Below, piece after piece: positions 5,165 through 34,235 of a stretch of 39,747 bases of DNA. Within the stretch, counting starts at the first letter, position 1. The number at the start of each line of letters is the position of its first letter. A program made the position numbers and the translations under genes. The notes beneath the pieces were generated by a model, which saw only the letters and a list, made by a program, of their open reading frames with translations, was not told the DNA's origin and made no database searches. Location of the stretch: the NCBI GenBank assembly GCA_003650545.1, contig QMQO01000009.1:1-39747 (forward strand), read 5' to 3'. The stretch comes from Candidatus Woesearchaeota archaeon (GTDB lineage Archaea > Nanobdellota > Nanobdellia > Woesearchaeales > B72-G16).

Positions 5165-5297
5165 TTTTTTCTTTTTTAAATTCTTTTTTAACTCTTTACA
5201 ACCTTTTGATAACAAAACAACATATTTATTCTAACATACAAATTTTTATAACTCAATTATTAGATATTTTATAAAAGAGCCAAAATAAGATGTTAAG

Positions 5298-6149
5298 ATG
5301 TTCAAAATAGACACTAGAAACGAAAAACTCAAGAGAGTTATACACAATGTTCTCTTAAATAAGAAATTACAAACATACTGGGTTTGCTCTAACATTAATG
5401 CGATAGATAGAATGGGGTTTAATGACCATGGCCAGAAACACATAGAAATAGTTATTAAAAATGCATTGACTATGTTTAATATTCTTAAAAGTCGCGGAGT
5501 CTACTCAAACATAATAAAGCACTACGCAAAAAATCCATTTGTCAAAAACTATGGTTTTAGTCATGATGATTCTGAAGTTATCATTTTTCTAGCAGCTTGT
5601 ACGCATGATATTGGCCACGCTGTTAGTCGCAAGGACCATCATTTTCATAGCACCTATTTAGCATTACCTTTATTAGAGGAAATCCTAGACGATATTTACC
5701 AAGAAGAACAACGTACAATTATTACTTCAGAAATTTTGCATTGCCTCGCTACAAACTATGCCAAAAAGAAACCCTTAACACTGGAAGCAAGCATTTTAAG
5801 GGTAGCAGATGCTCTTGATATGGCTGCTGGCCGCGCAAGGATTGCATTTAAATCAAATGCAGTAATTCCTGGGAAAAAAAAAGGAGAGTTCACAATTATA
5901 ACCACCGACGAAAAACCTGTTATTCATCAAACGTCTTCTTTAGGTATAAAAGAAATCATTATTAAACCTGCCCAAGAAAAACCAATATTAATAGAGATTC
6001 TTGTTGTGGATTCTTCAGCGATTTTCCAGATAGACGAATTGCTAAGGAAAAAAATTCGCGGTACGGGCCTAGAGAAATACATACAATTAATCATAAGAAG
6101 AGTTCCTGGAAAAACACACCAATTCAAAAAGATTAATTTTAAAATTTAG
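5298..6149 (+). CDS. HD-domain phosphohydrolase
   Basis: H...HD...D pattern: FNDHGQKHIE, CTHDIGHAVSRKDHHFHS, ILRVADALDM. TATA-like attttataaaag upstream. No GYP motif. Confidence 0.8.
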   Translation: MFKIDTRNEKLKRVIHNVLLNKKLQTYWVCSNINAIDRMGFNDHGQKHIEIVIKNALTMFNILKSRGVYSNIIKHYAKNPFVKNYGFSHDDSEVIIFLAACTHDIGHAVSRKDHHFHSTYLALPLLEEILDDIYQEEQRTIITSEILHCLATNYAKKKPLTLEASILRVADALDMAAGRARIAFKSNAVIPGKKKGEFTIITTDEKPVIHQTSSLGIKEIIIKPAQEKPILIEILVVDSSAIFQIDELLRKKIRGTGLEKYIQLIIRRVPGKTHQFKKINFKI

Positions 6150-6161
6150 AGAGGAATTCAA

Positions 6162-8522
6162 ATGCTTAAGCATGCTGCAGTTATAGGTTTAGATACTTTG
6201 AATATTGATTTGATGCGTTACATACCATCTTTTGATATTTTTAAAGGTTATTCTTCTCTTGAAGTATTAATAGATCCTAAATGTGATAGAATAGTTTTAG
6301 AAACAGAAGAAGACAGAAAACAGTACGAAGAAGCAATAAGAGGATTCCCCATCGTTTCCCAGAGCAATGGGGGTTGCTTGTTTAATGTTCTTTCTGCATT
6401 AAAGAGCTCAATAGGAAAGGAAAATCATCTTATTTTAGCCGGAACCCTTGGTCTTGATGAAAATGGAATGTTAGACGAGTTTGCACGTTCATATTTAAGA
6501 GAAGCGCATGAAGCAGGCATAATTGTGCTTGCCAATAAAGTACCTGTTAGTGCTGGCAAAGGTGGTACTGGTACAATAGAAGTCCTAATTTCAGATAATC
6601 CTATAGATAAACAATTTAAAGAACGCAAATTTGTAGCAAACAGAGGGGTTTCAACAGAAATTGTTTTTGACAAATCTTATTCTTCTTATCTCTACAAATT
6701 CCTAGCAGATCACGAACTCATTCTTCACTATACAATTGACTCAGAAGAAAAATTTCCAATCTATTTCTACAGGTCAGATGAACACAGACTACCTTTGCAC
6801 AAAGCTAACGGTAAGGTTCATCCCAAATATATCAACTTTGATTTTGTCTCAATCGATACAATTACCAGAAAAAGAGATTATCTTGAGGGAACACGAAGGA
6901 TTGCTGTCACAAATGGTTTTGCTTCTGAAAAACACCCCGATGTAGCTCTTAAATTCTTACAAATTGCTAGACAGAATGGCTGTGAAACCTTCTTTAGCTT
7001 TTCTAACCCAGATGTTGTTAGACATATCAATGACCTTTCTAAGAAAACAGGAACTGATTATTTTGAACAAATAATGAAAAACACAATGATCATCTCAAGC
7101 AATAAAAATGAATACGAATCAGTTGCTTCAAAAAACAATTCCAAAACTTTAAAAAACCATCCCCAAGTTTCTGTTTCTTTGTTGGATTCTTTAAGGAACA
7201 CAGAGGTGTTTCCTCCAGCATTATGTGTGTGCACCATGGGAGAAAATGGGCTTGTTCTAGTTACAAAGTCTCCTTTAAAACCAGACTTAGTAGAAGTAGA
7301 AGCAGATAAAATTTCACCAGAACTGTTTGCAGACACAACAGGCGCAGGCGATTTTATTCTTAGTAAACTTGTGAAGTACACCTTGTTAACGAGAAATATC
7401 ACTGATTTGAACCCATTCATGTTAGCTCAATATTTGCGTGAAGCAGGTACAGAGGCGTGTAAGTTTAAGGGGGGGAGTGTGCTATCTGTCGATAAGGAAA
7501 AAATGTTTATGAATCGCGTGATGAAAATCAACGATGAAGTAAGACTCGAATGTAGCAACAGTGATGAAGTTATAGAATGCTTATTAAAGCATTCTAAGGA
7601 TTTTTCAAAAGCAACAATGGGTGTGGTATATGAAGTTAGAGATGATAAGATAATGCCAATAGCTAGTACAGAAGAGATTAAACTGTACAACGATCTCGAC
7701 ATTTCAAAAACAGTGTTCAAAGAATTTCTAGAAGGCAAAGAAAAGATTCAGCTGAACGATGTATCGCAAATACTTTCTGACACTATCGCCTTTGATCACC
7801 ATACAAATGCAAAAGCTATAATTGCTTACCCTGTATTTATCGATGATAAATTAAAATACATTTATGAGCTAACTCATCATACAAAGGGTAAATTTAAATC
7901 AGACGAAGCTTACTTCTTAAGATATATTTGTACTGCTAAATATATCGATGATTCCTTACATCACGATCTTGACGAGAGGACTGGGTTATATAACGATGAA
8001 TATATGCAAAAACGTTTAAGTACAGAAATAGAAAAACTGAAAAGATTTAAAGACAGCGCCACACTGGTAATGGGAGATATTGATTTTTTTAAAAGAGTAA
8101 ATGATAACTATGATCATATAAAAGGAAACGAAGTTTTAAAAGAATTTGGCAAAATCTTTCACATAGCATTAAGAAATACTGATGTTATTGCTCGCTGGGG
8201 AGGTGAAGAATTTCTATTCTGGCTTACAAATACACCTAAAAAAAATGCAGAAATTCCTCTTACCCGGTTACAAGAGTTTATTTTAGCAAATAAATATTTG
8301 TCAGAGTTAAGAAATGACGCAGAAAAAAGAAGATTGCAAATCCCGCTGACAATGACTTTCGGCTATGTTGGATTCCCTGAAGATGTTAATGATATAAATA
8401 TGTCTACAGAAGATCTTATAAAAGACATGATCGAAAAAGCAGATTTGGCCCTTCTATATGGAAAAAGTAAATTAAATCGTAATGTTATCGTTCCTTATGA
8501 TTCTTCATTATCTTCACAGTAA
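6162..8522 (+). CDS. Fusion protein: PfkB-family (ribokinase-like) sugar/nucleoside kinase + GAF-like region + GGDEF domain
   Basis: PfkB signatures NGGCLFNVLSAL and DTTGAGDFI; C-terminal LVMGDIDFFKRVNDNYDHIKGNEVLKEF...RNTDVIARWGGEEF. SD GAGGAATT; 12 bp after the HD gene. Confidence 0.85.
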   Translation: MLKHAAVIGLDTLNIDLMRYIPSFDIFKGYSSLEVLIDPKCDRIVLETEEDRKQYEEAIRGFPIVSQSNGGCLFNVLSALKSSIGKENHLILAGTLGLDENGMLDEFARSYLREAHEAGIIVLANKVPVSAGKGGTGTIEVLISDNPIDKQFKERKFVANRGVSTEIVFDKSYSSYLYKFLADHELILHYTIDSEEKFPIYFYRSDEHRLPLHKANGKVHPKYINFDFVSIDTITRKRDYLEGTRRIAVTNGFASEKHPDVALKFLQIARQNGCETFFSFSNPDVVRHINDLSKKTGTDYFEQIMKNTMIISSNKNEYESVASKNNSKTLKNHPQVSVSLLDSLRNTEVFPPALCVCTMGENGLVLVTKSPLKPDLVEVEADKISPELFADTTGAGDFILSKLVKYTLLTRNITDLNPFMLAQYLREAGTEACKFKGGSVLSVDKEKMFMNRVMKINDEVRLECSNSDEVIECLLKHSKDFSKATMGVVYEVRDDKIMPIASTEEIKLYNDLDISKTVFKEFLEGKEKIQLNDVSQILSDTIAFDHHTNAKAIIAYPVFIDDKLKYIYELTHHTKGKFKSDEAYFLRYICTAKYIDDSLHHDLDERTGLYNDEYMQKRLSTEIEKLKRFKDSATLVMGDIDFFKRVNDNYDHIKGNEVLKEFGKIFHIALRNTDVIARWGGEEFLFWLTNTPKKNAEIPLTRLQEFILANKYLSELRNDAEKRRLQIPLTMTFGYVGFPEDVNDINMSTEDLIKDMIEKADLALLYGKSKLNRNVIVPYDSSLSSQ

Positions 8523-8618
8523 ACTTTATAAACAACCTGCATCATATTAAAGAGGTAATAAAAATCTTAAAGGTTTCAGCTGTTTCAGCTCAAATTTTTA
8601 ATATAAGAAAGACCTGCA

Positions 8619-10172
8619 ATGAAAACAAAAAAAGAACTGGGTGATTTGATTGACCTTAAACTATGGAATAAACTTCAGGCTAGCTTTGCCCAGGCAATAA
8701 AACTCCCTGTGCTCACAATAAATCCAGATGGTGAGATCATCTCAATCAGCCGTGATTTTCCGTTCTTTTGCCAAATGATTGAGAATAACGAAGAAGGCGC
8801 AAGAAAATGTACAGAATGTCGCAAACTAAATTTTGAAAAACTAAAGAAAGATGAAAATCGAATTTTATTTTATTATTGTCATGCAGATTTACTAAATATA
8901 ATGGTTCCAATCACGGTTAAAGGCGAACAAGTAGGTGCTGTTGTTTGTGAGTCTATACTACAAACAAAGAAAAACGTACCGAAGTGCAGAAAGGCGTCAG
9001 AAACTACAAAAATACCAACAGTTGAGTTTATTGATGCTATAAACGAAATGCGTATCCAAAAAAGAGAAGATGTAGAAAATTATGCAAAAGTTTTGTACAT
9101 TCTTTCTAATACTATTCCTGAGCTTGTACACCAAAAAGTGACGTCAGATCAAAAGATAAATGAATTAACAATTCTACATGATATCTCTAAAATGTTAAGT
9201 TCAACTCTAGAAATGGATAAAATGCTTGAAACTACAATGAAATTCATGAAGACTGCAGCAAAAGCAAAAGCATGCAGCACAGTTATAATTGAAGAAAATA
9301 GCAAAAAAAGATTTGAATTTGGAGAAGGCACTAATCAGTACATTAGCTTTGAGCAAGCAACTGTTGAAGAAGTCCAGAAGACAAGAAAACCTGTTGTGAT
9401 TCCTAATATCGAGAGTGAATCAGACAATAATATGTCAATAATATCTATTCCTATGAGTGTGAAAAACAAAGTAATCGGAGCAATAAATATATATGGCGCA
9501 CCTATCGAAAAGATGGGTGAGCACGATCTGAACTTTTTAACTATCATAACAAACCAAACAGCGTTAGCTGTTCAGAACGCCCAGCAATACGAACAAATCA
9601 AAGAACTAGCAATAACTGATAAACTAACATCATTGTATAACAGGCGACATTTTGAAAAACTAGTAGATACAGAGATTGAGCGTAGTAAACGTTATTCACA
9701 TCCGTTATCAATAGCTTTGCTTGACATAGACAACTTTGGTCACTACAACAATACGCATGGTCATCCTCGCGGTGACGAACTACTAGAGAACCTTTCAAAT
9801 ATATTAAAGCAGTGCACGCGCAAGATAGATATTCTTGGCAGATACGGTGGTGAGGAATTTATAATAGTCATGCCCAACACGAACGAGCAAGACGCGATAA
9901 ATGTTACTGAGCGAATAAGAAAAGCTATTGAAGAATTTGATTTTTATGGCCGTGACAAACAACCACTTGGAAAGGTTACAGCTTCAATTGGAGTTGTCAC
10001 TAATTTCAATTTTTCCAAAAAACAAGCTGAGTTAGTAGAAGCTGCTGACAGAGCACTCTACAATGCAAAAAATTCCGGCAGAAATCGGGTTATACATGAA
10101 ATCATTCCTGGTAACGATCCAATGGAACAGAAAAGCTTTGATGACTTTGTATTTAAAGGTGTTAAGGACTAA
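8619..10172 (+). CDS. PocR ligand-sensing domain + GAF + GGDEF domain protein (putative diguanylate cyclase)
   Basis: N-terminus LPVLTINPDGEIISISRDFPFFCQMI...CRKLNF...YYCHADLLNIMVPITVKGEQVGAVVCE (PocR-like); GAF-like middle; DKLTSLYNRRHFE...LLDIDNFGHYNNTHGHPRGDELL...RKIDILGRYGGEEF. Confidence 0.87.
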   Translation: MKTKKELGDLIDLKLWNKLQASFAQAIKLPVLTINPDGEIISISRDFPFFCQMIENNEEGARKCTECRKLNFEKLKKDENRILFYYCHADLLNIMVPITVKGEQVGAVVCESILQTKKNVPKCRKASETTKIPTVEFIDAINEMRIQKREDVENYAKVLYILSNTIPELVHQKVTSDQKINELTILHDISKMLSSTLEMDKMLETTMKFMKTAAKAKACSTVIIEENSKKRFEFGEGTNQYISFEQATVEEVQKTRKPVVIPNIESESDNNMSIISIPMSVKNKVIGAINIYGAPIEKMGEHDLNFLTIITNQTALAVQNAQQYEQIKELAITDKLTSLYNRRHFEKLVDTEIERSKRYSHPLSIALLDIDNFGHYNNTHGHPRGDELLENLSNILKQCTRKIDILGRYGGEEFIIVMPNTNEQDAINVTERIRKAIEEFDFYGRDKQPLGKVTASIGVVTNFNFSKKQAELVEAADRALYNAKNSGRNRVIHEIIPGNDPMEQKSFDDFVFKGVKD

Positions 10173-10227
10173 ACATTGTTAAAGACTAAACATTTATAAA
10201 TCAGGACATTTCTATCGTAACTAAAAG

Positions 10228-10761
10228 ATGGACGAATTAAAAGCTACCCAGAAAATTTCAAGGAAAAATTATGTTAGTTCAAATTCTGCTCTCTCTAAAA
10301 CATTAAAATCTGGGGATCTTGGCTTCAGAAAAACAAAGGCAAAAAATATATTACAGAAAACATTACAAAAAACCCAAGGTTATGACCATAAAAATAAACT
10401 AACCCCTGGTCAGCGTGCTGCAGATGCTGTTGCTAGGTTTGGTGGCAGTTGGACTTTCATAGTGATATTTTTAGGTTTTCTTATTTTGTGGATGATTTTA
10501 AACTCTATTATTCTTGTAAAATATGAAAAATCATTTGACGCCTATCCTTATATTTTACTCAATCTAGTCCTTTCGTGTCTAGCAGCAATCCAGGCCCCTA
10601 TCATCTTGATGAGTCAGAATAGAGCTGCAGAACGAGACAGGATAAAAGCAGATCGTGATTATGCTATAAATAGAAAAGCAGAGCGTGAAAATCAAATAAT
10701 CATGCGTGATCTTGAGCAGATGAAGAAGATGCTTAAAGCAATGGAGCAGAAAAAAATATGA
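10228..10761 (+). CDS. DUF1003-family membrane protein
   Basis: DAVARFGGSWTFIVIFLGFLILWMILN...YPYILLNLVLSCLAAIQAPIILMSQNRAAERDR: typical DUF1003 core. Confidence 0.85.
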   Translation: MDELKATQKISRKNYVSSNSALSKTLKSGDLGFRKTKAKNILQKTLQKTQGYDHKNKLTPGQRAADAVARFGGSWTFIVIFLGFLILWMILNSIILVKYEKSFDAYPYILLNLVLSCLAAIQAPIILMSQNRAAERDRIKADRDYAINRKAERENQIIMRDLEQMKKMLKAMEQKKI

Positions 10762-10763
10762 CT

Positions 10764-11963
10764 TCATTTTTTACTAACAATCTCAATTACATCTCTGTTT
10801 TTCAGCATATGATCTTTACCAATTATCTGTTTAGTTTTTAAGTCAATTGCTTTAATAAATCCATTGCCAATATCAGAATGAACTTTATACGCAAACTCAA
10901 GCGCTGTTATGTTCTCTGGTACTAAAAGACAATCAGGAAGTATATTTCCGTCTTTATCCTCTAATTTGCCATTTGCAACAGGATAGACAGCTATATATTT
11001 TAATAACTCAAAAACAGCTTTATCCAAAACCTGTTGAACACCTGTGCTACCATAGACATCTAATATTTTTTTTTTAATGAAATCCAGTGCAGATTTTTGT
11101 TTTTCATTAAGTTCTTCTTCTTTTAATACTTTAAAATTATTTTCTCCTGGTATGTACTCTATCAAACCATGTTTAGCAGCTTCTCTTAAGGCTAGCTCAG
11201 ATTCAGCAGAACATGCTATCAAGATATAGTCCTTAAATTTCTCTTTTAATTTATCAAAATTTGCCTTTCCAGTGGGCATATCAACTTTGTTACATGCTAT
11301 TATGATTGGTTTTGTCTTTTTTCTTAGCATACTTGCAAAATTTTTTAGTTCTTTTTCGCTCCATTCATGAAGTTTTTTAACTAAATTTAGATTTTCCATG
11401 CATTCTTCAACAAGCTCTTCTGTTATACCGCCTAGGCCAGAAAATTGTTTTGCAATAGCTTTTCCAGTCTGTTGTTGCAATTGAACCACTTGCCTTGAAA
11501 GTTTGTCCCAAACCTTTTTTAGTAAACCAAAGTACCACATGTCAAGTTCGACTTCAAGAAATTTGATATCGTCAGCAGGATCGTAACTTCCTGGTTCTAC
11601 TGGTTCTCCCATCTCGTTTGTGCTTCCTGCAGCATCTACTACATGTATCAACACATCCGCCTGCCTTAGATCGTCAAGGAACTGGTTTCCTCGACCTAAA
11701 CCTTTATGTGCACCTGGGACAAGTCCTGCTACATCTAACATTCTTACAGGAACAAACCTGTTGTGATTTAAACAATAGCCTGTTCTAGGATTACATTTCT
11801 TTCCAAAATCTTTATCTACACATTTCACTTTAACATAAGCTATCCCTTCATTTGGAGAAATTGTTGTAAATGGATAATTTGCAATTTCAGCTTCGGCTAG
11901 GGTTGCTGCTCTAAAAAATGTTGATTTTCCAGTTGATGGTTTTCCTATACAACCTACAAACAT
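10764..11963 (-). CDS. ychF: YchF/Obg-family GTPase (archaeal type, TGS domain)
   Basis: GCIGKPSTGKSTFFRAATLAEAEIANYPFTTISPNEG; VRMLDVAGLVPGAHKGLGRGNQFLDDLRQADVLIHVVDA; C-terminal TGS. Confidence 0.93.
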   Translation of the reverse strand: MFVGCIGKPSTGKSTFFRAATLAEAEIANYPFTTISPNEGIAYVKVKCVDKDFGKKCNPRTGYCLNHNRFVPVRMLDVAGLVPGAHKGLGRGNQFLDDLRQADVLIHVVDAAGSTNEMGEPVEPGSYDPADDIKFLEVELDMWYFGLLKKVWDKLSRQVVQLQQQTGKAIAKQFSGLGGITEELVEECMENLNLVKKLHEWSEKELKNFASMLRKKTKPIIIACNKVDMPTGKANFDKLKEKFKDYILIACSAESELALREAAKHGLIEYIPGENNFKVLKEEELNEKQKSALDFIKKKILDVYGSTGVQQVLDKAVFELLKYIAVYPVANGKLEDKDGNILPDCLLVPENITALEFAYKVHSDIGNGFIKAIDLKTKQIIGKDHMLKNRDVIEIVSKK

Positions 11964-12552: not shown

Positions 12553-13254
12553 ATGTTAAAAGCAGACTTGCACATTCATACATCAAAAGATCCTGAGGAT
12601 CGTAGATATATACGCTTATCCCCGAAGGAAATAATAACGATTGCAGCAAAAAAAAAATTTGATGTAATTTCCATAACGCATCATTCTCATGTTTACTTTA
12701 ATGAAGAACTAAAGAATTTCGCCAAAAAACAAGGCATTCTACTTATACCAGGCTGTGAACATAGAATCGATGGTAAAGACATCCTCATTTATAATATAAC
12801 AGAAAAAGAACGCCGAAAAATCAAGACATTTAAAGACTTGAATAAAATTAGAAATAAAGCATTGGTAATCGCTCCACATCCATATTACTTTGGAATACAT
12901 AGCCTTGGAAGAGAGCTATGCAAAAATATTAATTTATTTGACGCAATAGAATATAGTCATTTCTACACAAGATGGTTCAATCCAAATAAGAAAGCAATAA
13001 AAATTGCTATAAAACACAACAAACCATTAATAGGCACATCCGACACACATTATTTATTTCAGTTTGGCACAACCTATACCCTTATCGATGCAAAAAAAAA
13101 CATAAAATCTGTTTTTAAAGCCATAAAGGAAAATAAAATTGTTGTTAAATCAAAACCTCTTTCACCACATGTTTTTCTTATATTAATAGCTAGGATGATT
13201 TTCACATTACCTAAGAAGCTATTTCAAATTATTTCATTTAAACATGAGTTTTAA
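12553..13254 (+). CDS. PHP-domain metal-dependent phosphoesterase
   Basis: ADLHIHTS, ITHHSH, GCEH, APHPYYFG, GTSDTHY metal-ligand motifs. Confidence 0.88.
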   Translation: MLKADLHIHTSKDPEDRRYIRLSPKEIITIAAKKKFDVISITHHSHVYFNEELKNFAKKQGILLIPGCEHRIDGKDILIYNITEKERRKIKTFKDLNKIRNKALVIAPHPYYFGIHSLGRELCKNINLFDAIEYSHFYTRWFNPNKKAIKIAIKHNKPLIGTSDTHYLFQFGTTYTLIDAKKNIKSVFKAIKENKIVVKSKPLSPHVFLILIARMIFTLPKKLFQIISFKHEF

Positions 13255-13331: not shown

Positions 13332-13919
13332 ATGCCTATAGAACGTCCAATAATTAATTATGTTTTGAAATACAAAGAGGTGTTTGATCCTTGGGAACTT
13401 TATCTATTCATGAGAGAGTGGGCTATTGAAGAAGGCTGGGTATCTCGTAACGAAACAGAATTTAAGGAAACTTTTTATTTACAAAAGGAAACCAGTGCGG
13501 GCACAGAAATCTGGTATTGGTGGCGCTTCCATAAACCAATAAGTTCATTTTACAGATACGACTACAAAATAGATGCACACATATTATTTCTTAAGCCACA
13601 TGAATTAATAATTGAAGGGAAAAAGCTTAAGACTTTCCACGCTGAAATAGAGTTCACAGTGCGTGGTATACTTGTGATGGACCAAGAAGGTAACTGGGAG
13701 AAACACTGGTTATTGAAACACCTTTTAACACGCTATTTTATTAATCGAATTTACAAGAAGGATATTGAATATCACGGCCTTGTAATTTCTAGAGAAGCCA
13801 AAAAACTACAGGAATTTCTGAAATCATACTTTCAAATGGGCTCATTTGAGCGTGATCGTGAAGAGCGTTATTTTTTCGCAAAGCAATCTGGTCAAGTTCA
13901 GCCAGGCAGGATGAGATAA
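13332..13919 (+). CDS. Uncharacterised protein, tandem paralog A
   Basis: Similar size and layout to the next two ORFs; intact ORF with promoter-like upstream region. Confidence 0.75.
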   Translation: MPIERPIINYVLKYKEVFDPWELYLFMREWAIEEGWVSRNETEFKETFYLQKETSAGTEIWYWWRFHKPISSFYRYDYKIDAHILFLKPHELIIEGKKLKTFHAEIEFTVRGILVMDQEGNWEKHWLLKHLLTRYFINRIYKKDIEYHGLVISREAKKLQEFLKSYFQMGSFERDREERYFFAKQSGQVQPGRMR

Positions 13920-13920
13920 A

Positions 13921-14448
13921 ATGCCAAAGTACGAGATGCATAAAAAATACTTATACAAAGCTCCTGGAAGGCAGATAGACAAAATTGAATACTCTGGGAT
14001 TGTAGACTGGGATGGTTTATATGCTTTAATTTCAAACTTTTTTATTTCTAGGAGGTATATTTTCACAGAAACATCAAATAAATTCAAAGCAGACAAAATA
14101 GGCTATCATTATGAGATAGAAATGGAAGCCTGGCGCAAAGTTACAAATTATTTCAAATATTGGCAAAAACTTTATATTAGAATCTGGGAAAAAGAACTTG
14201 TTGAAGTTATTAAAGAAGGTCAGAAAAAAAAAATGTACAGAATGCGTTTTTTTATTGAATTTATGCCTGCATTAGAGACAGACTACCAAAAACGCTTTGA
14301 AAAAAGCGAATTGGGAGAGAAATTTAGAGATTGGATTGAGAAGTACCTACTCAAACGCGAAATTGAATTTAGACACTGGGACAGTCTCTATTATGAAACA
14401 ATTGCATTGCGTAACGAGATAAAAAATTATTTAAACATTCAAGTATAG
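13921..14448 (+). CDS. Uncharacterised protein, tandem paralog B
   Basis: Starts 1 bp after paralog A; shares GxVDxxxLYxxIxxFFxxRxY...E..xW+..T.Y pattern with paralog C. Confidence 0.75.
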   Translation: MPKYEMHKKYLYKAPGRQIDKIEYSGIVDWDGLYALISNFFISRRYIFTETSNKFKADKIGYHYEIEMEAWRKVTNYFKYWQKLYIRIWEKELVEVIKEGQKKKMYRMRFFIEFMPALETDYQKRFEKSELGEKFRDWIEKYLLKREIEFRHWDSLYYETIALRNEIKNYLNIQV

Positions 14449-14454
14449 TTAAAA

Positions 14455-14970
14455 ATGGCAGAAGAAATGATTGTTGTGGATCATAAAACCTTGGACTACC
14501 AAGGCTTAGTTGATATTCCTGAGTTTTATAAAGTAGTAGATGGTTATTTTAAACGTAGAGGTTACGATAAAAAGGAAGCTTTGACAGCAGAAAATGTTAC
14601 AGAAACAGGAAAATACATGGAAGTTCGGCTAGAACCATGGAAAACACTAACTGATTATGCGCAGAGCAAGTTTGTGATACGCATACAATTCTTTGACACG
14701 AAAGAAGTCGAAATAGAGATTGACAAAGTGAAAAAACGTATTCATCAAGCTCATGTTAAAATAGTAACAGATGCATACCTTGTAACAGACTATGAAGGGA
14801 GATGGGAAGAAAATGCTTTTTCATTTTTCATCCGCACTCTGATGGACCGTTATTTTTTAAGAAGCCTTACCAACAAACAACGTGCAGAGATAGCCGAAGA
14901 CGTTGAGCGCTTTTATCAACTTATTGGTTCATTCTTGAACATACAGAAATATAGAATGTCCACATATTGA
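14455..14970 (+). CDS. Uncharacterised protein, tandem paralog C
   Basis: GLVDIPEFYKVVDGYFKRRGY...MEVRLEPWKTLTDY...DYEGRW...FLNIQKY; 6 bp after paralog B. Confidence 0.75.
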   Translation: MAEEMIVVDHKTLDYQGLVDIPEFYKVVDGYFKRRGYDKKEALTAENVTETGKYMEVRLEPWKTLTDYAQSKFVIRIQFFDTKEVEIEIDKVKKRIHQAHVKIVTDAYLVTDYEGRWEENAFSFFIRTLMDRYFLRSLTNKQRAEIAEDVERFYQLIGSFLNIQKYRMSTY

Positions 14971-24506: not shown

Positions 24507-27500
24507 TCACTCATTTTTCTTGATATTATACTTTTTATGATTCTTGTGTGTACTTTTAAACATTCTCATCAACTCATCATACTTAGACCTCTTTGGTTTT
24601 AACAATAAAACAATGACAGAAATCAACACAATGATAATGCTGATAATAACAATAATCTCCTGTAGGGAGAATGGTAGTCTAATCTCAGCAATCCATTTTT
24701 GCTTGGGTTCAACAATTTTTTCTGATACCAAAACAGCTTTTTCAGCAGGGGCTAGAGCTACAGGTGGTTCTTTTTCAGTCACTTCTGGTTTTTTTTCTAC
24801 ACTTGGTGCTGGAGCTTTGAACCCCTTCACTGTGATTGCAAAATAACTAAATCCAGGGGTTTCAGCTTCGTAATAAATATATTGGCTATCTTCTCTAATC
24901 ACTTTTGTGGGAAGTTCGTTCCAGCTGCCATTATAGCGTGCAAGTGTAACATTGTTAACATTAATACCATTATTTGAAATCCATAATTTGCTAACCTCAA
25001 ACCTAACTTTTGCAACCAAGATATTCTCAGTAGGGATATTTGTACTGATATTGACGTAGGCCCCAACAAAACCTTCTATTTCAGGTACTGTTAATTTGCC
25101 AACCTGTGCAACAGTAAACTTAGCGTCTGTAAAGTCTATGTTAAGTTTTACTTTTAAAGCATCAATACCCAGTACATCAAAGCTGACTGTCTTTTCAGTA
25201 TTAGCTCTAATCGTTGCATAAATCTTGGTAGTTGCATTTACAAAAACACTAGGAATGTAAGTTGCAAAACTCCCTCCTCCACCACTGCTACCACCTCCAC
25301 TGGTTGATGTAATTGTACAGCTTTGGCTTTCTTCAGGTTTATTATTGATAGTGCCACAGTTGTTTACGTCAGTACAAGTTCTGGTTTGGGTCCCACTAGA
25401 ACAAGAACTCCAACTTGTGCAGCTCCAAGACTCGGTGCATTGTTGCTTAACAGCCGAATGTACTAAGCCTGAGACTTTGTATTGTGTATCATTTGTAGAA
25501 AGCGCACAACTATAATCGCCACTTGTACCTGGACAGATTATATAATATTCATTTGTATCATTACACCCATCACTTATCTGTGTTAAACTAGAAACCTCTT
25601 CATCCTTTATACATACACTTGTCTTGTTGGTGTCTATTATATCAACATAAATACTTTTTTTAACACTTTGAGAACTTAAATCCAATCCGCGAACAATAAC
25701 ACTACCAATAGTGCTTGTTGAGTTCTGTACTTTTATACTTATGTCTGCAAGATTCAAGGTTTCATTCTTGCTAAAGTTGAAATCAAATCGTACAATAGGC
25801 TTGCTTGCATTACCTATCATGACAATCCTTGTCCCGTTAAATAGCTTACTAAGATTGGTTTCACCGTCAATAGTAACATTAACCGCTTCTACATTTATAT
25901 CTATATTAGAGGCAATTCCATTTAGTGTATCCTGATTATCGATTATACCATCGTTATCATCATCTGTATCGTTTATGTCTGGTGTTCCATCATCGTCTGT
26001 GTCTCTTACTATTATAAACCTGGTTTGGTTAAAACCAGTCAGTGAGGCGGAATCAATAGACCAGACATCGATTGTGTGAGTTGTATAGTTATATAACGAA
26101 ACAACAGTCGCTATTGAAGAACAATTATTACACAGTGTAGCATTTGCTTCTGTATCTAATCTATATATTGAATCTACAGGTTCGCTAAATGTCACATTCA
26201 GCCAGACGTTTGGAGAGCTTCTTGTTATTGTCGATCCGTTCTGTGGACTATTAATGATCACATCTGGATTAGTAATATCTTGACAGCTTGTTGCATTATC
26301 TATGCAGGTTTCCTGAAGAGAACATGCATCATGTAATACCCAATCACCTTGCAATGCCAATGTTCCATCACAAGCACCAGTACCTGTACCGCAATATTGC
26401 ACAATGCTCTGCTTCCAGAGATCATCCCCTAGGGCTGTTCCGTTTGGACACCCATAGTCTACACCATAACTTGCATTACAAATAGTTGTCCCTGGATCAT
26501 TCACATAGCTGTCACAACTGGCGAAGATAATGCTTCCATTTCCATCACAAGTGTTATTAACGTCATAATAGTTTCTACATATAGTATCAAGATAATCACA
26601 GTCTGTGGTATTTACATATGTTCCAGACGGCATGTTGGTGTAATTGTTACATATTCCATAATTAATTCCGCCAGAGCCATCACAAGTTGTGTTTGTATCG
26701 TGGTAGTCTCTACATATATTATCTAAATAATCGCAATCAGTGGTGTTAATAACATACCCGTTTGGTTTATATAATGCAACGTGGCATCCAGTAGTACTAT
26801 TAAAAATATAGCTAATGCAAGTCACGTTAGCAGGTAGATTAACCAGACTCTCGTTATCGCATTGATCTAATGCATCGCACAGACCGTCACCATCAGTATC
26901 TATGTTTGAAATTGTTGCAATAAAAACATAACTTACATTGTACTCTCCATCTCCCGCGGTTGCTGTTACAGCTGCAGCACCATACCAACATCCGGCTGAG
27001 CTAACATTAATCCTATTTCCGTTTAAGGAGCTTACAACATTCGTTTCGTTATCAGATACATAATAAAGTAAGGTTTTGTTATCTACGTCAGAGAAATAAT
27101 TAGTCAAGTTAGCCGTCATATTATAGCTGTTCTGTTGTACAACTATATTAGGAATAGATGTAATAACAACAGGAGCATCATTCACAGCAGTTACAGTGAC
27201 AGTGAAATCATCTGATGTATTATATTGTCCGTCTCCTGCTGTAACATTTACAACACCAACACCAAAATATTCAGTATTGGGTGTCACATTAATTACATTT
27301 CCTGTTATCAAACCAACAGATATGTTAGGATTAGAGCTTGTCAGATAATAAGTTATTGTGCTATCAGGATCAGAAAAATGATCGTCTAAGTCAACCGTTG
27401 TATTGAACTCATCCTCAACAATCGTCATGTCTGAGAGTGGGACATCCAATGTTGGTGGATCATTAACTGCAAGAGTAAAGGTTCTATTATTTACCCCCCA

Positions 27501-30500
27501 GACATAATCACTTACATTAGTTACTGCTACACATTTTACATTCCACATATAATAATTCTCTGTCAATACAACATGACTGTCCCAGTTATTGGGTGTGTTA
27601 AAGTTGTACACAGTGTTATTTGCCTGCCAGCTTCCTGAGAAATTACCCCACAATGTACAATTAACCGTTCTATTCCCAGAGACATAAACTCTAAAGGTAA
27701 CATTGCTGGCTGTCACATTGCCATAATCTGCTGGCGACACTAGTGAGACATTAAATGGACTCTCAGCAGCTCTATACGCAGTAAAATGCTGTACATCAAA
27801 TATAAGTGTGCTACCATCATAACTTACAATACTGCACTCTGGCGCAGGACAATCTTCGAAGTTACCATCGTCATCTCTGTCAATCTGGATTTTAGCACTT
27901 TCATAGTTTAAACCATAAATCGTGATTCTGGCAGAACTGTTAAAACTAGAATGAAGAGCACTACTATTCACAAACACATAGTTATCAGATATATCTACCT
28001 TGCCATTAAGATCTTCTCGTGATATATTTATATTACCGCTCCAGTTGATTTTTCCCTTGCCAGATCTGTGCAATGTGAAATAAGGAATAGCTTCTACATT
28101 GTCAACAGCTAAAAGGTTAGTTGTGTCACCATCAAACATCGAAGGTAATCTGTTTACAACAGTCACATTAAACTTAGCAGTTATGTTATCATTGTTATAT
28201 TGATTGTTATAGATCGAGAAGAATTCGTATTTACCAAGAGAAGTCGCATTCACACTCCACGTTGTGTTACACTCCTCACCATTGGATAAATTTTCCAGAC
28301 AGCTACTATTCTGTGGATTATTACTTATAGTATAGAACGGTGTTGCCCCAGTCATAGTAGAGATAATCCCTTTCGCATTAATCGCAGCCAATACATCTAC
28401 TCGGGGTATTGTTATGCCTATACTACTATCATATATACTTTTACCATTATACTGTAAGGCATATTCAACTTCTTCTGCGCTTAATATACGATTCTCTCTT
28501 TGTTTATAATACTGCTTTAATAATGCGGCAGCTCCTGCAACATGAGGCGTAGACATGCTAGTACCACTATCAGACCTGAAACCACCGGAATCATGATCAA
28601 CAGATATTATGTTACTTCCAGGAGCAAACACATCTGCTATCAAACCTCTATTAGAGAAACTTGAAATAGCATCTATTTTTGTTGTAGAGCTAACAGAAAG
28701 AGCTTTACTAGCACAACTAGGTACATTAAGTCCGTTTGTATAACCATCATTTCCGGTTGCAATTACTACTGTTAGTCCATTTTCAACAGCACTATTTACA
28801 GCTGCAGTACTTGCCTCACTATCACAATATGAATTGTACCTTGAGTGATCACCAATACTTATGCTTAACACAGAGATATTAAATACACTTGCATTATTAA
28901 TACACCAGTCAATGCCTGCAATTATATCTGAGAAAGTTCCAGAACCACCAGAATTTAGAACTTTTATTGCTACAATCTTAGCTCCGGGTGCAACCCCCTT
29001 GTATGTGCTATCCTCGCTGGCGATTATACCTGCACAATGACTGCCATGACCATTATCATCTATAGGATCAGCATCGTCATTAACATAATCATAACCACCT
29101 AATACCTTAGCACAGTTTCCTGAAAGGAATTGTGCTTGCGTGCAACCACCAAATGCAGGATGGCTATAGTTAATACCTGTATCGATGACGCAAATAGTTT
29201 GGCCAACACCTGTTATATTTTGGCTTGAAATTTGAACAGCCCAAACATCATTCGCATTTATCAACGGTACACTCTCACTGAGCTTTATGCCAACTTGTCT
29301 ATCTAGTTCAATTTTAGCTACATCTAGATTCTTCTTAAGTCTTTCTAGACCGTCTCGATTTATATTTCCCGCAATTGCATTGATTGTTGTATAACTTTTC
29401 TTTATATTTAGCCCTTTAATACTAGATACAGCATCCTGTTGTTTTTTAATCATACTTTTTTTAGCAGCAAGTTTTTCGTCTCTAGAGAGTTGCCTAGGTA
29501 CAGTATTCTCAAGACCGATTATGCTAAGAATGCTGGCAGCTGCTTTCTTGCTATCTAAGATTTTCTTTTCTTGGGATTTAACATAATCCTTGTCATCCTT
29601 TAATTTAATGATCACTCCAACGCTACCATTTCTCTCAATAGCTTCAATAATAGGGTCTTTTATTTCCTTAGACTCTTCAATCTCGTCAAATTTCTTTGGG
29701 TCTAGATATGCATAGATGTTCTCACATTTGCCGCCATCACATCTAACCTTTGTGGTTACATTAAATATTTCATATTTATAGACATTTATGTTATTGTTGG
29801 GACTTACAAGGCTGGGCTGCAGGCTACCGATCTCTTGTACTAATATATCATAAGTTCCATTTTCTGTGCCATAATAATCTGTTGTTTTTACATAATAAAA
29901 ACCAGTGTATGTAGCTCTAAACAAGATTGCGGAAGAAACACCCCCTCTTGAGTCATCATCGTCATTACTCTGCACTAAAGTTTTATTAGAATTATATAAG
30001 TATATCTTAGTGTCAGCTCCACCACCCAAGTTCTGTGTTTTTATAAGGTATTGTAAGCCATTAGTCACATTAAACTTAATTGTATCAACATCTCCTGCAG
30101 GATAAAAGTTGTGGCTATATGCAGTTCCATTAGTTAGCACCCATCTTGCTTGGTAGAAGTAATCATCGTATTCATATACATCAAGGTTTGTCAGAGTCTG
30201 TTCGGTTATAGAAATGTTATATGTCACATTATCATAAGAATTCCCTGTATTTTGTGGGTCTCCAACTTTTAAATAATATGTGTTGTTTTCGTTACTTCCC
30301 CATATAAGCCTAGATGCAGCCGTGCTTTCATTAATATCGTCATTAGCTAGCAAAAAAGTCGTACCATCTACATCATAGAGGGATAGGTATGTGTCAGCTC
30401 CACCAGTTAAATCAAATGTCTGTATAGTATATTTCACCCCTGCTGTTGTGTTAAACTTCATCCAGTCTTCATCTCCCTGTGGATTGAACGTATGCAATTG

Positions 30501-33500
30501 TTTAGTCCCATCTGTAGTAATCCATTGTGCTTGAGTATAGTTATCGTCATCTTCGTAAACATCAACTGCAGCTATCACCTGCACATCATCAGAGTCTTCG
30601 TCAGAACCAACATTACCATTAGAGTCTGCTACTGTTACATTTACATTATTTGTATAATTATTTGAACAAGTTCCATTTACAGTCAGATTAAGCAGAACAA
30701 TGTAAGACTGTCCTGGCAGAAGGTTTCCACTTGTGTACCACTTAAGATTACCATCTGTTGTGTCATTTGCAGCAGGGTTAGATGCATTATATGTTAACTG
30801 GCTAATGTTATAATAATCTGTTATGTTAATAGTTGTTATATTTGTCTGCCCAGTATTGGTTATGTTTATTCTAAACCGAGCAATGCCAGATTGACTTATA
30901 GGACTGTTCAACACAGTTTTCTCAACAGAAATATTGGCTTCATTCAGACTCAGTGTCTGTATCCTTGGCCCAACTCCAGAAAAGTGAGGCAGCTTAATCC
31001 ACGTTATATTTGCGGTTGTGTTAACATAACAATTAGCTGACGAATTAGATCTACTGCAGATTTCGCCTGTGCCGTTAAAATATGCTTGATAATCAGGGAT
31101 ATAGTCTGAATAATCGCTTAACGCAAGAACCTCTGACACACCATCGCCAGCAGAAGCATTCCATAACACATTCCAATCATCATCATACAGGTATTCAAAA
31201 CTAACGATGATTGTGTCTGTTGCAGGATCTACCAATGATGTATTTATTGGTATTCCGACGTAAACATAATCGTAAATTTCAGGAGCAAAACTACCAAATT
31301 TCCATACTTGATCATAACCACCTGCACCATGTGCTCTATCTTCAGCAGCTTGGTTATCCATAAAAGCTGATGGTGGTCCAGAAGATAAAAGATCAGCAGT
31401 AAAAAGCATCATCTCTATTGAAGGACTAGAGCTTATCTTCATATGTACGTGCACTTTACCTGCCATCATCGCCCTTATCGGATCGAAGAAACCAACAAAC
31501 TTCTCTCCTATTCTACAACCACTACTAGGGTAAAGTTTTGTACATGCATCAGTACTTTTGAAGAACTCGACTTCGAGATTTCTCAAGCTTTGGTTCATGC
31601 TGATAGGAGTTCCATTCTCATCAAACTCCATCATATCAAATGATTCTAGAGTTATATTAAATTCATTGTCATTACTCAGATTTATCTTTCTGGAAATAGG
31701 CGCATAGTTATTGCTGAACACAGCGACCCTTGCTTCAGCATTATTAGGAAAGAACATGTTAAAACTGCTATTCTCAACTTCGTCTAGCATCCAGTATACA
31801 ACGTAAGGGATTTCAGGGTATCTTGTCTCAATTTCTATATGGGCATCTTGAACCTGTTCTGTTTGGTTACTCCTCTTGTTCCTTTGCATGATATTTATTT
31901 TTTTAAATTTTGATGTTACATTAAATGTAAACTTCATACCATCAGGATCTCCACCTTCGCCACCTCTACCAAAGATTTTCGATTTTACAGAACCAACAGC
32001 AGGATGAAGCGAGATATTAATCTGTTGATCACCACCACTATATTCGCTTGTGTAATTCATAACACCAACATAATAGTTTGTTGAAGAGCCATTTTTTAAA
32101 AAAGCAGCAAGCAAGCCAGGCATGCCACCAACAGTAGCAACTGTTTCTATTTCATAGTAACCTATGCTTGCATTAAAGGTGTCATTATGCGGACTACCAC
32201 AGATAGCTGAGAGTTCTGCCATACTACAAAGATTTTCGGGCATAGTGGCGTCTATTGGAATCATCTTGCCACTACCAACCCTTGCAAAAGGTACAACATC
32301 TAAAGTAGTGCCGTTTATAACAGAACCATTTAGTAAAACATAACCTGAAACTTTATGGAATGTGAATGATGTATTAACAACAAGTTGATAATAACTGCCA
32401 TTATAATTGCTAATTCCGCTTGTGGTAGATCTCACGGGTGGTCTTTCAAATGGAAAAACCTCAACAATATATTCGCGATCAGCAGGAACAACCACTTGTG
32501 CAACATTGACCATTTGACTTTCATTCATAGCGAAATTCTCTGCAAATGGCATACCTCTGCCAGAATCAGTTACAACATAACTAAATTTAACAGGTCCAGT
32601 TTCATTTACAGCGCTAATATTTATTGTGGTTGCAGGAGAAAGGTATATAGTTGCGTCTTTCAGTCCAAACTGATCGTCTATCATCAACATTCTGTCTACA
32701 GGAGGTAAGTTTGGTGATATCTCACTAGCAGTTGTGTAGCTAGAATCGGTATAACTCTTTGCACTAATCATGTACATATTACCAAATGGGTCTGAGGTAT
32801 TATAATATATATTCTTAACAGTAAACGCTCCTGTTGTAGTGTTAACAGTTGTAGTGTACCAAACACCTCTGTTACTAATTCCTTCCGGTCCAAAGCTTAT
32901 TTTTGTTACAGTTATATTAACATATTCAGGAACACCATTTACTAAACTTTCAACCCTGCCAGAATAATTGAAATAGTTAGGATTGCCCCAGTTACATTCT
33001 GGATAAAAAGTATCACAAACATTTTTGCTTGTCACATTCTCACAATATAGATTGTTGTTTTCACAAAAACCACTACTGTTCCAAAAACAAACACCTGATG
33101 TTTGTCCACAATCTACAGAATTATTAATGACATAACAGCCACCACCTCCAAACACAGGCCCTTCTTGTGTCACAGTATAACATACAGGCCCGACAGATCC
33201 AGGTATTGTCACACCTTCCAATGTTTGACTGTTTGTTTGGTTACCTTCTGTGTCTACCACAGTAACATTAACACGGTTATAGAATGTTCCAGATGCAGAT
33301 CTAACAGTGGTAAGATTAAGCATTATAATAAAACTATTTCCCGGACACAGCGTGGTTGAAATTTTCCATGTTAGATTCCCATCAGTGTCATTGTCAGGAG
33401 AGAGACTGGCGTCATCAAAATTAAATTCAGATATATTATAGTAATCGTTCACTGTTATATTTGTTATATTGGTTATTCCAGTATTTGTAATGTTTATGAT

Positions 33501-34235
33501 GAACACAGAGGTTTGGTTAAGTGCAGTGCTAGAGTTTAAAGCATTCTTATTTACTATTATAGAAAGATTATTTGATGATGGCCCACTTCCACCAATAACA
33601 TAAACATTTTCTGAATAATTGTCAATAGTAAGGTTACCCTGATCATCAATTGCTTCAACAGAAACATTGTTTGTAATATTTCCTTCTGTAGCAATAATAG
33701 TTAGATTTAAAAATATCTGATATGTTTGATTTGGTGCAAGAATTTGTAGGAACCATGTTAGATTACCATCACTATCATTATTAGGATAAGGATCTGAGTT
33801 GTTAAATGTGAACTCAAGCGTATCATAATAATCGTTTATTGTTATATTAGTTAAATTTTCAATGCCATCATTTGTTGCATTGATAACAAATCCTACAATC
33901 TGATTTTGTATTGCAGTTTGATTGCGTGCGAATTTAAGAACAGATATACCTTCAGGAATCCAATAACAAATATTAGATGTAGCAGACTCACAAAAAAACT
34001 GATTAGAAATATTAGAACAATCGCCAAGAATTGATCCAGAACAACCGCTGCCCCATGAACAACCAGACATCTCTCCGCACAACCCTGAATCGGTTATATT
34101 TGGACATTCTAGTCCTGAGCCAGCACAATCTGCAAATACGCCCCCTGCAAACACAAAAGTTACAGCTAACAACACAAAGAAAATGATGGCTAGCTTAATC
34201 CATTCGCCTATCTTCTCGCGCATCCCTTCCCTCAT
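24507..34235 (-). CDS. 3242-aa surface-anchored protein with subtilisin (S8) domain, Cys-rich modules, DUF11/CARDB-like repeats, two PPC-like domains, cadherin-like repeats, TSP1-like domain, PGF-pre-PGF-like domain and C-terminal TM
   Basis: S8 triad ICVIDTGINYSHPAF / NGHGSHCAGI / SGTSMSTPHVAGAAALL. PPC-like DVYEDDDNYTQAQWI...DEDWMKFN. TSP1-like WSCTSWSSCSSGTQTRTC. TM IIVIISIIIVLISVIVLLL. Confidence 0.9.
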   Translation of the reverse strand: MREGMREKIGEWIKLAIIFFVLLAVTFVFAGGVFADCAGSGLECPNITDSGLCGEMSGCSWGSGCSGSILGDCSNISNQFFCESATSNICYWIPEGISVLKFARNQTAIQNQIVGFVINATNDGIENLTNITINDYYDTLEFTFNNSDPYPNNDSDGNLTWFLQILAPNQTYQIFLNLTIIATEGNITNNVSVEAIDDQGNLTIDNYSENVYVIGGSGPSSNNLSIIVNKNALNSSTALNQTSVFIINITNTGITNITNITVNDYYNISEFNFDDASLSPDNDTDGNLTWKISTTLCPGNSFIIMLNLTTVRSASGTFYNRVNVTVVDTEGNQTNSQTLEGVTIPGSVGPVCYTVTQEGPVFGGGGCYVINNSVDCGQTSGVCFWNSSGFCENNNLYCENVTSKNVCDTFYPECNWGNPNYFNYSGRVESLVNGVPEYVNITVTKISFGPEGISNRGVWYTTTVNTTTGAFTVKNIYYNTSDPFGNMYMISAKSYTDSSYTTASEISPNLPPVDRMLMIDDQFGLKDATIYLSPATTINISAVNETGPVKFSYVVTDSGRGMPFAENFAMNESQMVNVAQVVVPADREYIVEVFPFERPPVRSTTSGISNYNGSYYQLVVNTSFTFHKVSGYVLLNGSVINGTTLDVVPFARVGSGKMIPIDATMPENLCSMAELSAICGSPHNDTFNASIGYYEIETVATVGGMPGLLAAFLKNGSSTNYYVGVMNYTSEYSGGDQQINISLHPAVGSVKSKIFGRGGEGGDPDGMKFTFNVTSKFKKINIMQRNKRSNQTEQVQDAHIEIETRYPEIPYVVYWMLDEVENSSFNMFFPNNAEARVAVFSNNYAPISRKINLSNDNEFNITLESFDMMEFDENGTPISMNQSLRNLEVEFFKSTDACTKLYPSSGCRIGEKFVGFFDPIRAMMAGKVHVHMKISSSPSIEMMLFTADLLSSGPPSAFMDNQAAEDRAHGAGGYDQVWKFGSFAPEIYDYVYVGIPINTSLVDPATDTIIVSFEYLYDDDWNVLWNASAGDGVSEVLALSDYSDYIPDYQAYFNGTGEICSRSNSSANCYVNTTANITWIKLPHFSGVGPRIQTLSLNEANISVEKTVLNSPISQSGIARFRINITNTGQTNITTINITDYYNISQLTYNASNPAANDTTDGNLKWYTSGNLLPGQSYIVLLNLTVNGTCSNNYTNNVNVTVADSNGNVGSDEDSDDVQVIAAVDVYEDDDNYTQAQWITTDGTKQLHTFNPQGDEDWMKFNTTAGVKYTIQTFDLTGGADTYLSLYDVDGTTFLLANDDINESTAASRLIWGSNENNTYYLKVGDPQNTGNSYDNVTYNISITEQTLTNLDVYEYDDYFYQARWVLTNGTAYSHNFYPAGDVDTIKFNVTNGLQYLIKTQNLGGGADTKIYLYNSNKTLVQSNDDDDSRGGVSSAILFRATYTGFYYVKTTDYYGTENGTYDILVQEIGSLQPSLVSPNNNINVYKYEIFNVTTKVRCDGGKCENIYAYLDPKKFDEIEESKEIKDPIIEAIERNGSVGVIIKLKDDKDYVKSQEKKILDSKKAAASILSIIGLENTVPRQLSRDEKLAAKKSMIKKQQDAVSSIKGLNIKKSYTTINAIAGNINRDGLERLKKNLDVAKIELDRQVGIKLSESVPLINANDVWAVQISSQNITGVGQTICVIDTGINYSHPAFGGCTQAQFLSGNCAKVLGGYDYVNDDADPIDDNGHGSHCAGIIASEDSTYKGVAPGAKIVAIKVLNSGGSGTFSDIIAGIDWCINNASVFNISVLSISIGDHSRYNSYCDSEASTAAVNSAVENGLTVVIATGNDGYTNGLNVPSCASKALSVSSTTKIDAISSFSNRGLIADVFAPGSNIISVDHDSGGFRSDSGTSMSTPHVAGAAALLKQYYKQRENRILSAEEVEYALQYNGKSIYDSSIGITIPRVDVLAAINAKGIISTMTGATPFYTISNNPQNSSCLENLSNGEECNTTWSVNATSLGKYEFFSIYNNQYNNDNITAKFNVTVVNRLPSMFDGDTTNLLAVDNVEAIPYFTLHRSGKGKINWSGNINISREDLNGKVDISDNYVFVNSSALHSSFNSSARITIYGLNYESAKIQIDRDDDGNFEDCPAPECSIVSYDGSTLIFDVQHFTAYRAAESPFNVSLVSPADYGNVTASNVTFRVYVSGNRTVNCTLWGNFSGSWQANNTVYNFNTPNNWDSHVVLTENYYMWNVKCVAVTNVSDYVWGVNNRTFTLAVNDPPTLDVPLSDMTIVEDEFNTTVDLDDHFSDPDSTITYYLTSSNPNISVGLITGNVINVTPNTEYFGVGVVNVTAGDGQYNTSDDFTVTVTAVNDAPVVITSIPNIVVQQNSYNMTANLTNYFSDVDNKTLLYYVSDNETNVVSSLNGNRINVSSAGCWYGAAAVTATAGDGEYNVSYVFIATISNIDTDGDGLCDALDQCDNESLVNLPANVTCISYIFNSTTGCHVALYKPNGYVINTTDCDYLDNICRDYHDTNTTCDGSGGINYGICNNYTNMPSGTYVNTTDCDYLDTICRNYYDVNNTCDGNGSIIFASCDSYVNDPGTTICNASYGVDYGCPNGTALGDDLWKQSIVQYCGTGTGACDGTLALQGDWVLHDACSLQETCIDNATSCQDITNPDVIINSPQNGSTITRSSPNVWLNVTFSEPVDSIYRLDTEANATLCNNCSSIATVVSLYNYTTHTIDVWSIDSASLTGFNQTRFIIVRDTDDDGTPDINDTDDDNDGIIDNQDTLNGIASNIDINVEAVNVTIDGETNLSKLFNGTRIVMIGNASKPIVRFDFNFSKNETLNLADISIKVQNSTSTIGSVIVRGLDLSSQSVKKSIYVDIIDTNKTSVCIKDEEVSSLTQISDGCNDTNEYYIICPGTSGDYSCALSTNDTQYKVSGLVHSAVKQQCTESWSCTSWSSCSSGTQTRTCTDVNNCGTINNKPEESQSCTITSTSGGGSSGGGGSFATYIPSVFVNATTKIYATIRANTEKTVSFDVLGIDALKVKLNIDFTDAKFTVAQVGKLTVPEIEGFVGAYVNISTNIPTENILVAKVRFEVSKLWISNNGINVNNVTLARYNGSWNELPTKVIREDSQYIYYEAETPGFSYFAITVKGFKAPAPSVEKKPEVTEKEPPVALAPAEKAVLVSEKIVEPKQKWIAEIRLPFSLQEIIVIISIIIVLISVIVLLLKPKRSKYDELMRMFKSTHKNHKKYNIKKNE

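Follow-up and report, generated by a model that had tools for sequence, protein, structure and literature searches.

Do archaea use cyclic di-GMP (c-di-GMP), a signal molecule long regarded as bacterial? According to reviews, archaea have hardly any c-di-GMP proteins, and the GGDEF genes seen on archaeal contigs await confirmation (PMC5847659, PMC8646023, PMC10086821). The question is raised here by a 39,747-nucleotide stretch of a Woesearchaeota genome (the window, in whose coordinates all positions are given), which carries genes for an HD-domain protein, two GGDEF proteins and a DUF1003 protein. A sequence-only reading had proposed that these four genes form a signalling island with a complete second-messenger circuit. 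Judged from their sequences, the genes look able to make c-di-GMP. The best explanation of the whole, which we consider probable, is a native, vertically maintained archaeal locus whose PocR–GAF–GGDEF protein is an active, ligand-responsive diguanylate cyclase. With proteins named, the use of c-di-GMP by archaea becomes a testable question.

GGDEF cyclases are already known as a kind. Braun et al. (2021) reported more than 300 archaeal GGDEF hits, many in DPANN and Asgard; these share domain and superphylum with the proteins of the window (PMC8646023). They are BLAST hits only, whereas operon structure, synteny, active-site residues and frequency within one order are analysed here. In one study of ultra-small bacteria and archaea, diguanylate cyclase genes were 1.7-fold commoner in sediment-enriched than in planktonic genomes (PMC9938205). 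As far as the open-licence literature was searched, four elements are new: the conserved locus; the fusion of PfkB-like, GAF and GGDEF parts, together with its split form; the pairing with an HD gene; and the profile of an order rich in cyclases and poor in EAL and PilZ.

The PocR–GAF–GGDEF protein

The central protein is encoded at 8619-10172 on the forward strand (517 aa). It contains a PocR sensory domain (8643..9122; PF10114, 7e-31), a GAF domain at residues ~198-320 (9211..9578; Pfam GAF_2, 7.6e-10) and a canonical GGDEF domain (9609..10088; PF00990, 1e-46), which scores 159.1 bits against a Pfam cut-off of 23.8. This GGDEF domain keeps the DID motif, N335, D344, GGEEF, the RxxD inhibitory site (I-site), K442 and R446; K332 is replaced by glycine. 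Residue numbers are those of PleD, assigned by motif. The metal-binding aspartate (D327), N335, D344 and GGEE[FI] are kept in all 13 PocR–GGDEF domains, and RxxD in 12 of them. Across the order, 47 of 62 GGDEF domains (the set that remained after two spurious second alignments were discarded) keep the metal aspartate, N335, D344 and [GAS]G[DE]EF.

The most likely role of the protein is that of an active diguanylate cyclase that responds to a ligand. The PocR domain, the GAF domain or both would bind a small metabolite; GGDEF dimers would then form and turn GTP into c-di-GMP. Output would be capped by product inhibition at the RxxD site, and the PfkB-like–GAF–GGDEF partner would add a second input. 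The protein resembles bacterial sensor diguanylate cyclases of the PleD/WspR type in its GGDEF match, GGEEF motif, metal aspartate, guanine contacts N335 and D344, RxxD and N-terminal sensors. In contrast to these enzymes, it has a PocR–GAF sensor module, and its gene is part of a conserved locus in archaea that also holds YchF and OapB/OapC; the assembly of the window also lacks EAL and PilZ.

An archaeal locus shared between families

Conservation was examined in an even sample of 193 genomes from the order to which the window belongs (Woesearchaeota-containing, DPANN) and in a wider search of 353 genomes; genomes of this order are numbered G (G000 is the assembly of the window), families f and loci L. 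G010, which belongs to another family than the window, is a single contig (1.30 Mb, 100% complete). Its gene order is HD, PfkB, GAF–GGDEF, PocR–GAF–GGDEF, YchF (opposite strand), PHP and one further shared open reading frame (ORF). Identity to the window is 44% for HD, 44% for PocR–GGDEF, 62% for YchF and 43% for PHP. PfkB and GAF–GGDEF are two genes overlapping by 4 bases in G010 and are fused in the window. In a third family, G235 (from the 353-genome search) has an HD gene with an extra domain, followed by GGDEF, PocR–GAF–GGDEF and YchF. The operon of HD, companion GGDEF and PocR–GAF–GGDEF with a convergent YchF-type GTPase recurs in these three families. In the window, the archaeal YchF/YGR210-type GTPase lies at 10764..11963 on the reverse strand (NF007171, 4e-164) and the PHP metallohydrolase at 12553..13254 on the forward strand (PHP_C, 4e-8); the latter is found at the same place in G010, G174 and G126.

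PocR occurs in 12 of the 193 genomes, and every above-cut-off match sits in a PocR–GGDEF ORF. Nine of 13 examined PocR–GGDEF loci have a common context (one each in f1, f11, f64 and f84, two in f32 and three in f82). YchF is directly adjacent or one gene off in eight of these, and the ninth is cut off by the end of its contig; PocR–GGDEF stands beside YchF in six families. Genes for an Era-like GTPase, OapB and/or OapC lie upstream in f11, f32, f82 and f84. The four remaining loci (two in f58, one each in f71 and f20) are in other genomic places. A conserved neighbourhood, for which the sequence-only reading had proposed a search, is thus present, as an operon in three families and as the PocR–GAF–GGDEF and YchF pair in six.

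The assembly to which the window belongs (as contig C9) is fragmented, with 1.64 Mb in 133 contigs, 85% completeness and 3.9% contamination. This leaves room for contamination by bacterial DNA, which the sequence-only reading had named as a possible refutation, or for a recent, isolated transfer. Either is extremely unlikely, because the gene order recurs across families and is found once on a single 1.3-Mb contig; independent contamination could not yield the same order. The flanking genes are archaeal-type YchF and OapB/OapC. In a GGDEF tree, 10 of the 13 PocR–GGDEF domains group together with support (99/89), and no bacterial sequence falls within the group; the tree took in only eight bacterial sequences and its bootstrap was not fully settled, which limits what it says on the ultimate origin. 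Inheritance at a fixed archaeal locus is the simple reading. With gene order kept across six families, one single-contig complete genome among them, the doubt about contamination is answered for this group and the cluster can be regarded as archaeal. No viral relatives of the PocR protein were found, and among the 5000 best plasmid records no match reaches 80% coverage of it.

Further observations concern genes near PocR–GGDEF and a second GGDEF family. OapB/OapC (named 'origin-associated proteins' in Pfam) are near it in L234, L238, L239, L242, L243 and L244. An AbrB/MazE-plus-PhoU domain protein is encoded directly or nearly directly upstream in f32, f71 and f82 (L234, L237, L239, L242, L243 and L244). 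A second GGDEF family of about 475 aa (L242:3594-5012, L243:9518-10957 and L246:4509-5942) is found near a gene for an Mre11-like calcineurin-like phosphoesterase, with a HerA-like gene nearby in two loci; its three domains form one supported clade.

The companion PfkB-like–GAF–GGDEF protein

The second gene of the cluster (6162-8522, forward strand, 786 aa) encodes a fusion. Its N-terminal part (6162..7526) is PfkB-like (ribokinase fold) and has a DTTGAGDF motif; the Pfam match (0.008, 15.9 bits) is below the cut-off of 25.8. A GAF-like domain at residues ~466-590 (7557..7931; GAF_2, 0.0033) is also below cut-off, and is followed by a GGDEF domain (7968..8399; PF00990, 1.8e-26) with GGEEF and the RxxD I-site. 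As the sequence-only reading had noted, GGEEF and DID are present in both GGDEF domains; the residue table adds RxxD, likewise in both. Pfam agrees with its other assignments for HD, both GGDEF domains, PocR, the GAF domain of the PocR protein and DUF1003. Its coupling of sensor domains to GGDEF is upheld as well, with the reservation that the PfkB and GAF domains of the fusion do not reach the Pfam cut-off alone.

When the fusion was compared by hhalign with a profile built on 17 PfkB sequences of this order, 245 columns including GAGD were aligned (E 2.9e-6, probability 88%). G010 has a separate, unambiguous PfkB gene (1.6e-21) at the corresponding place. Because of the profile-profile match, the GAGD motif and this free gene, a divergent PfkB-like domain can be accepted with moderate confidence. 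Comparison of contig positions revealed no PfkB homologues beside GGDEF elsewhere in the order. The protein is probably a co-regulated partner of the PocR cyclase, with a PfkB-like part that would sense a nucleoside or sugar.

The same genes could instead be a metabolic unit, in which the GGDEF proteins respond to salvage by an HD nucleotidase and a PfkB-like nucleoside/sugar kinase. HD is paired with at least two forms of kinase (PfkB-like and fused to GGDEF in the window, free PfkB in G010), with the weakly APH-like domain on the G235 HD protein as a possible third; the best PDB relatives of the PfkB profile include adenosine and inosine-guanosine kinases. We regard this alternative as rather unlikely, as the PfkB-like domain of the window is divergent and the APH assignment is weak. 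With an E-value of 0.19, APH kinase identity was not accepted for the extra domain of G235.

The companion GGDEF domain differs between the three operons. In the window, the guanine-selecting aspartate (PleD D344) is replaced by asparagine, next to GGEEF; G010 has Ser344, AGDEF and Val335, while G235 has Asp344 and GGEEI. A tree of these domains has long branches and did not resolve their orthology. This erosion, together with the near absence of PilZ and EAL partners in the order, would fit GGDEF proteins that have degenerated into sensors, binding GTP or c-di-GMP and not synthesising it. This is unlikely, given that PocR–GGDEF is canonical in all homologues found and that most GGDEF domains of the order retain their catalytic residues. 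In the preferred reading, with an active PocR cyclase, the changed base pocket of the companion probably makes it regulatory or altered in specificity.

Hypr GGDEF enzymes (GacA; cyclic GMP-AMP (cGAMP) synthases) are altered at the same base-selecting position. In these, Ser/Thr at the selectivity position pairs with GGDE[F/Y], and Ser combined with GGEEF is non-functional (PMC6456294). In contrast to this signature, the companion domain of the window has Asn with GGEEF; that of G010 combines Ser and AGDEF, without N335. Asparagine is nearly as long as aspartate, so that Asn with GGEEF may be compatible with the Hypr model, which does not predict base preference here. A dual-messenger locus, in which the Asn-bearing, PfkB-coupled GGDEF makes another cyclic dinucleotide (e.g. 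cGAMP or cyclic di-AMP) beside a true c-di-GMP synthase and effectors are unlike the bacterial ones, has only a slim chance of being correct.

Degradation and effectors

The HD gene opens the cluster (5298-6149, forward strand, 283 aa; Pfam HD PF01966, 3e-6). All four ORFs are on the forward strand with gaps of 12, 96 and 55 bases; the positions given by the sequence-only reading were checked against the sequence and are correct, including the 12 bases between the HD gene and the first GGDEF gene. G010 has a homologue in the corresponding position, and in G235 the homologue is fused to a possible kinase-like domain. That HD precedes the cyclases in three families points to co-regulation, and the protein is probably a phosphohydrolase that is co-transcribed with them. 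Its predicted structure (pLDDT 82) gives weak fold matches to PPX/GppA domains (E 6e-3); a functional likeness to these was not used.

The sequence-only reading had assigned to this protein the degrading half of a complete circuit, as phosphodiesterase for the cyclic dinucleotide of its neighbours. In three families, the gene next downstream of HD is indeed the companion GGDEF or its PfkB partner, and the HD metal residues H48, H103, D104 and D171 are invariant in 31 homologues. These metal-binding residues are shared with HD-GYP phosphodiesterases; unlike those enzymes, the protein of the window has no HD_5 (PF13487) match and no GYP motif. The HD family is also widespread, in bacteria as well as in archaea. 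At least 471 related stretches exist, and the best 80 are in Bathyarchaeota, Aenigmarchaeota, DHVE2, Thermoleophilia, Chloroflexi and others. At these 80 loci, no GGDEF lies within about 8 kb (several contigs are shorter than that) and strong shared neighbour genes are absent. The nearest folds, moreover, are not cyclic-dinucleotide phosphodiesterases. Because the protein is not of the HD-GYP type and its family is widespread with no GGDEF nearby at the 80 loci, cyclic-dinucleotide hydrolysis by the HD protein is possible but unsupported, and a complete local circuit is doubtful.

Signal degradation, where it occurs, is more likely to be carried out by HD-GYP proteins encoded elsewhere. HD_5 is present in 55 of the 193 genomes (49 above cut-off), and 39 of these 55 also contain GGDEF (odds ratio 2.6, p 0.006; 2.3 and 0.02 for strict matches, all without correction for kinship). 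The assembly of the window encodes one complete REC–HD-GYP protein (L066:3485-5101; HD_5, 6e-42), whose HDVGK and HHERLEGSGYP motifs conform to the HDxGK and HHExxxGxGYP pattern; its contig, C60, is only 5.3 kb long, so that membership in the assembly is less sure. The sequence-only reading had recognised no HD-GYP in the window; this one is encoded on a different contig. In other genomes, HD-GYP genes are plainly in archaeal surroundings: beside what we take, from their sequences, to be aEF1A, uS10 and Kae1 in G040, and near a presumed TFB in G004.

On contig C60 (L066), STAS-like/anti-sigma-kinase-like genes lie beside a histidine kinase with the REC–HD-GYP protein. Genes of the same kind lie beside a GAF–GGDEF gene (Asn344, GGDEF) on contig C107 (L054). 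These two small contigs are possibly one signalling cluster.

GGDEF itself is found in 106 of the 193 genomes (75 of the 135 of good quality), and the assembly of the window has four GGDEF genes; the claim that the domain is rare does not apply to this order. Several observations weigh against the preferred reading of a cyclase locus. EAL is present in only 4 of the 193 genomes and PilZ in only one. MshEN was found in none of 41 genomes, and G000 has neither PilZ nor MshEN. GEMM riboswitches are absent from the seven loci searched, where tRNAs are the only Rfam families. The only HD_5 protein of G010 has no HD dyad, leaving at least one carrier of the operon without an obvious intact phosphodiesterase. 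The HD-containing operon is rare (2 genomes in the even sample of 193, with G235 added by the search of 353), and two positions of the PocR–GGDEF domain vary from one homologue to another (G, T, R, S or K at K332; R or K at R446). For the proposed circuit, candidate genes for sensing and synthesis are present; degradation by the HD protein is not supported, and no known effector was found among PilZ, MshEN and GEMM. The effector would be neither a PilZ nor an MshEN protein. Many cyclases, some HD-GYP proteins and almost no EAL or PilZ point to effectors yet to be recognised.

The remaining features of the window are minor. The DUF1003 gene (10228-10761, forward strand, 177 aa; PF06210, 2.5e-36), which the sequence-only reading had counted as part of the island, adjoins the cluster and is outside the conserved unit; the operons of G010 and G235 have none between PocR–GGDEF and YchF. 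An archaeal TATA-like box, TTTATAAA, lies at 5268..5275 on the forward strand, 23-30 bases upstream of the start of the HD gene, and may be the operon promoter; nine such octamers were found in the window where about 4.7 are expected, which makes this weak evidence for a promoter. Defence-system models gave no match. Three tandem ORFs at 13332-14970 are related (37%, 28% and 24% identity) to the single ORF after PHP in G010 and represent a duplicated family without a Pfam match. An ORF of 3242 aa is located at 24507-34235 on the reverse strand.

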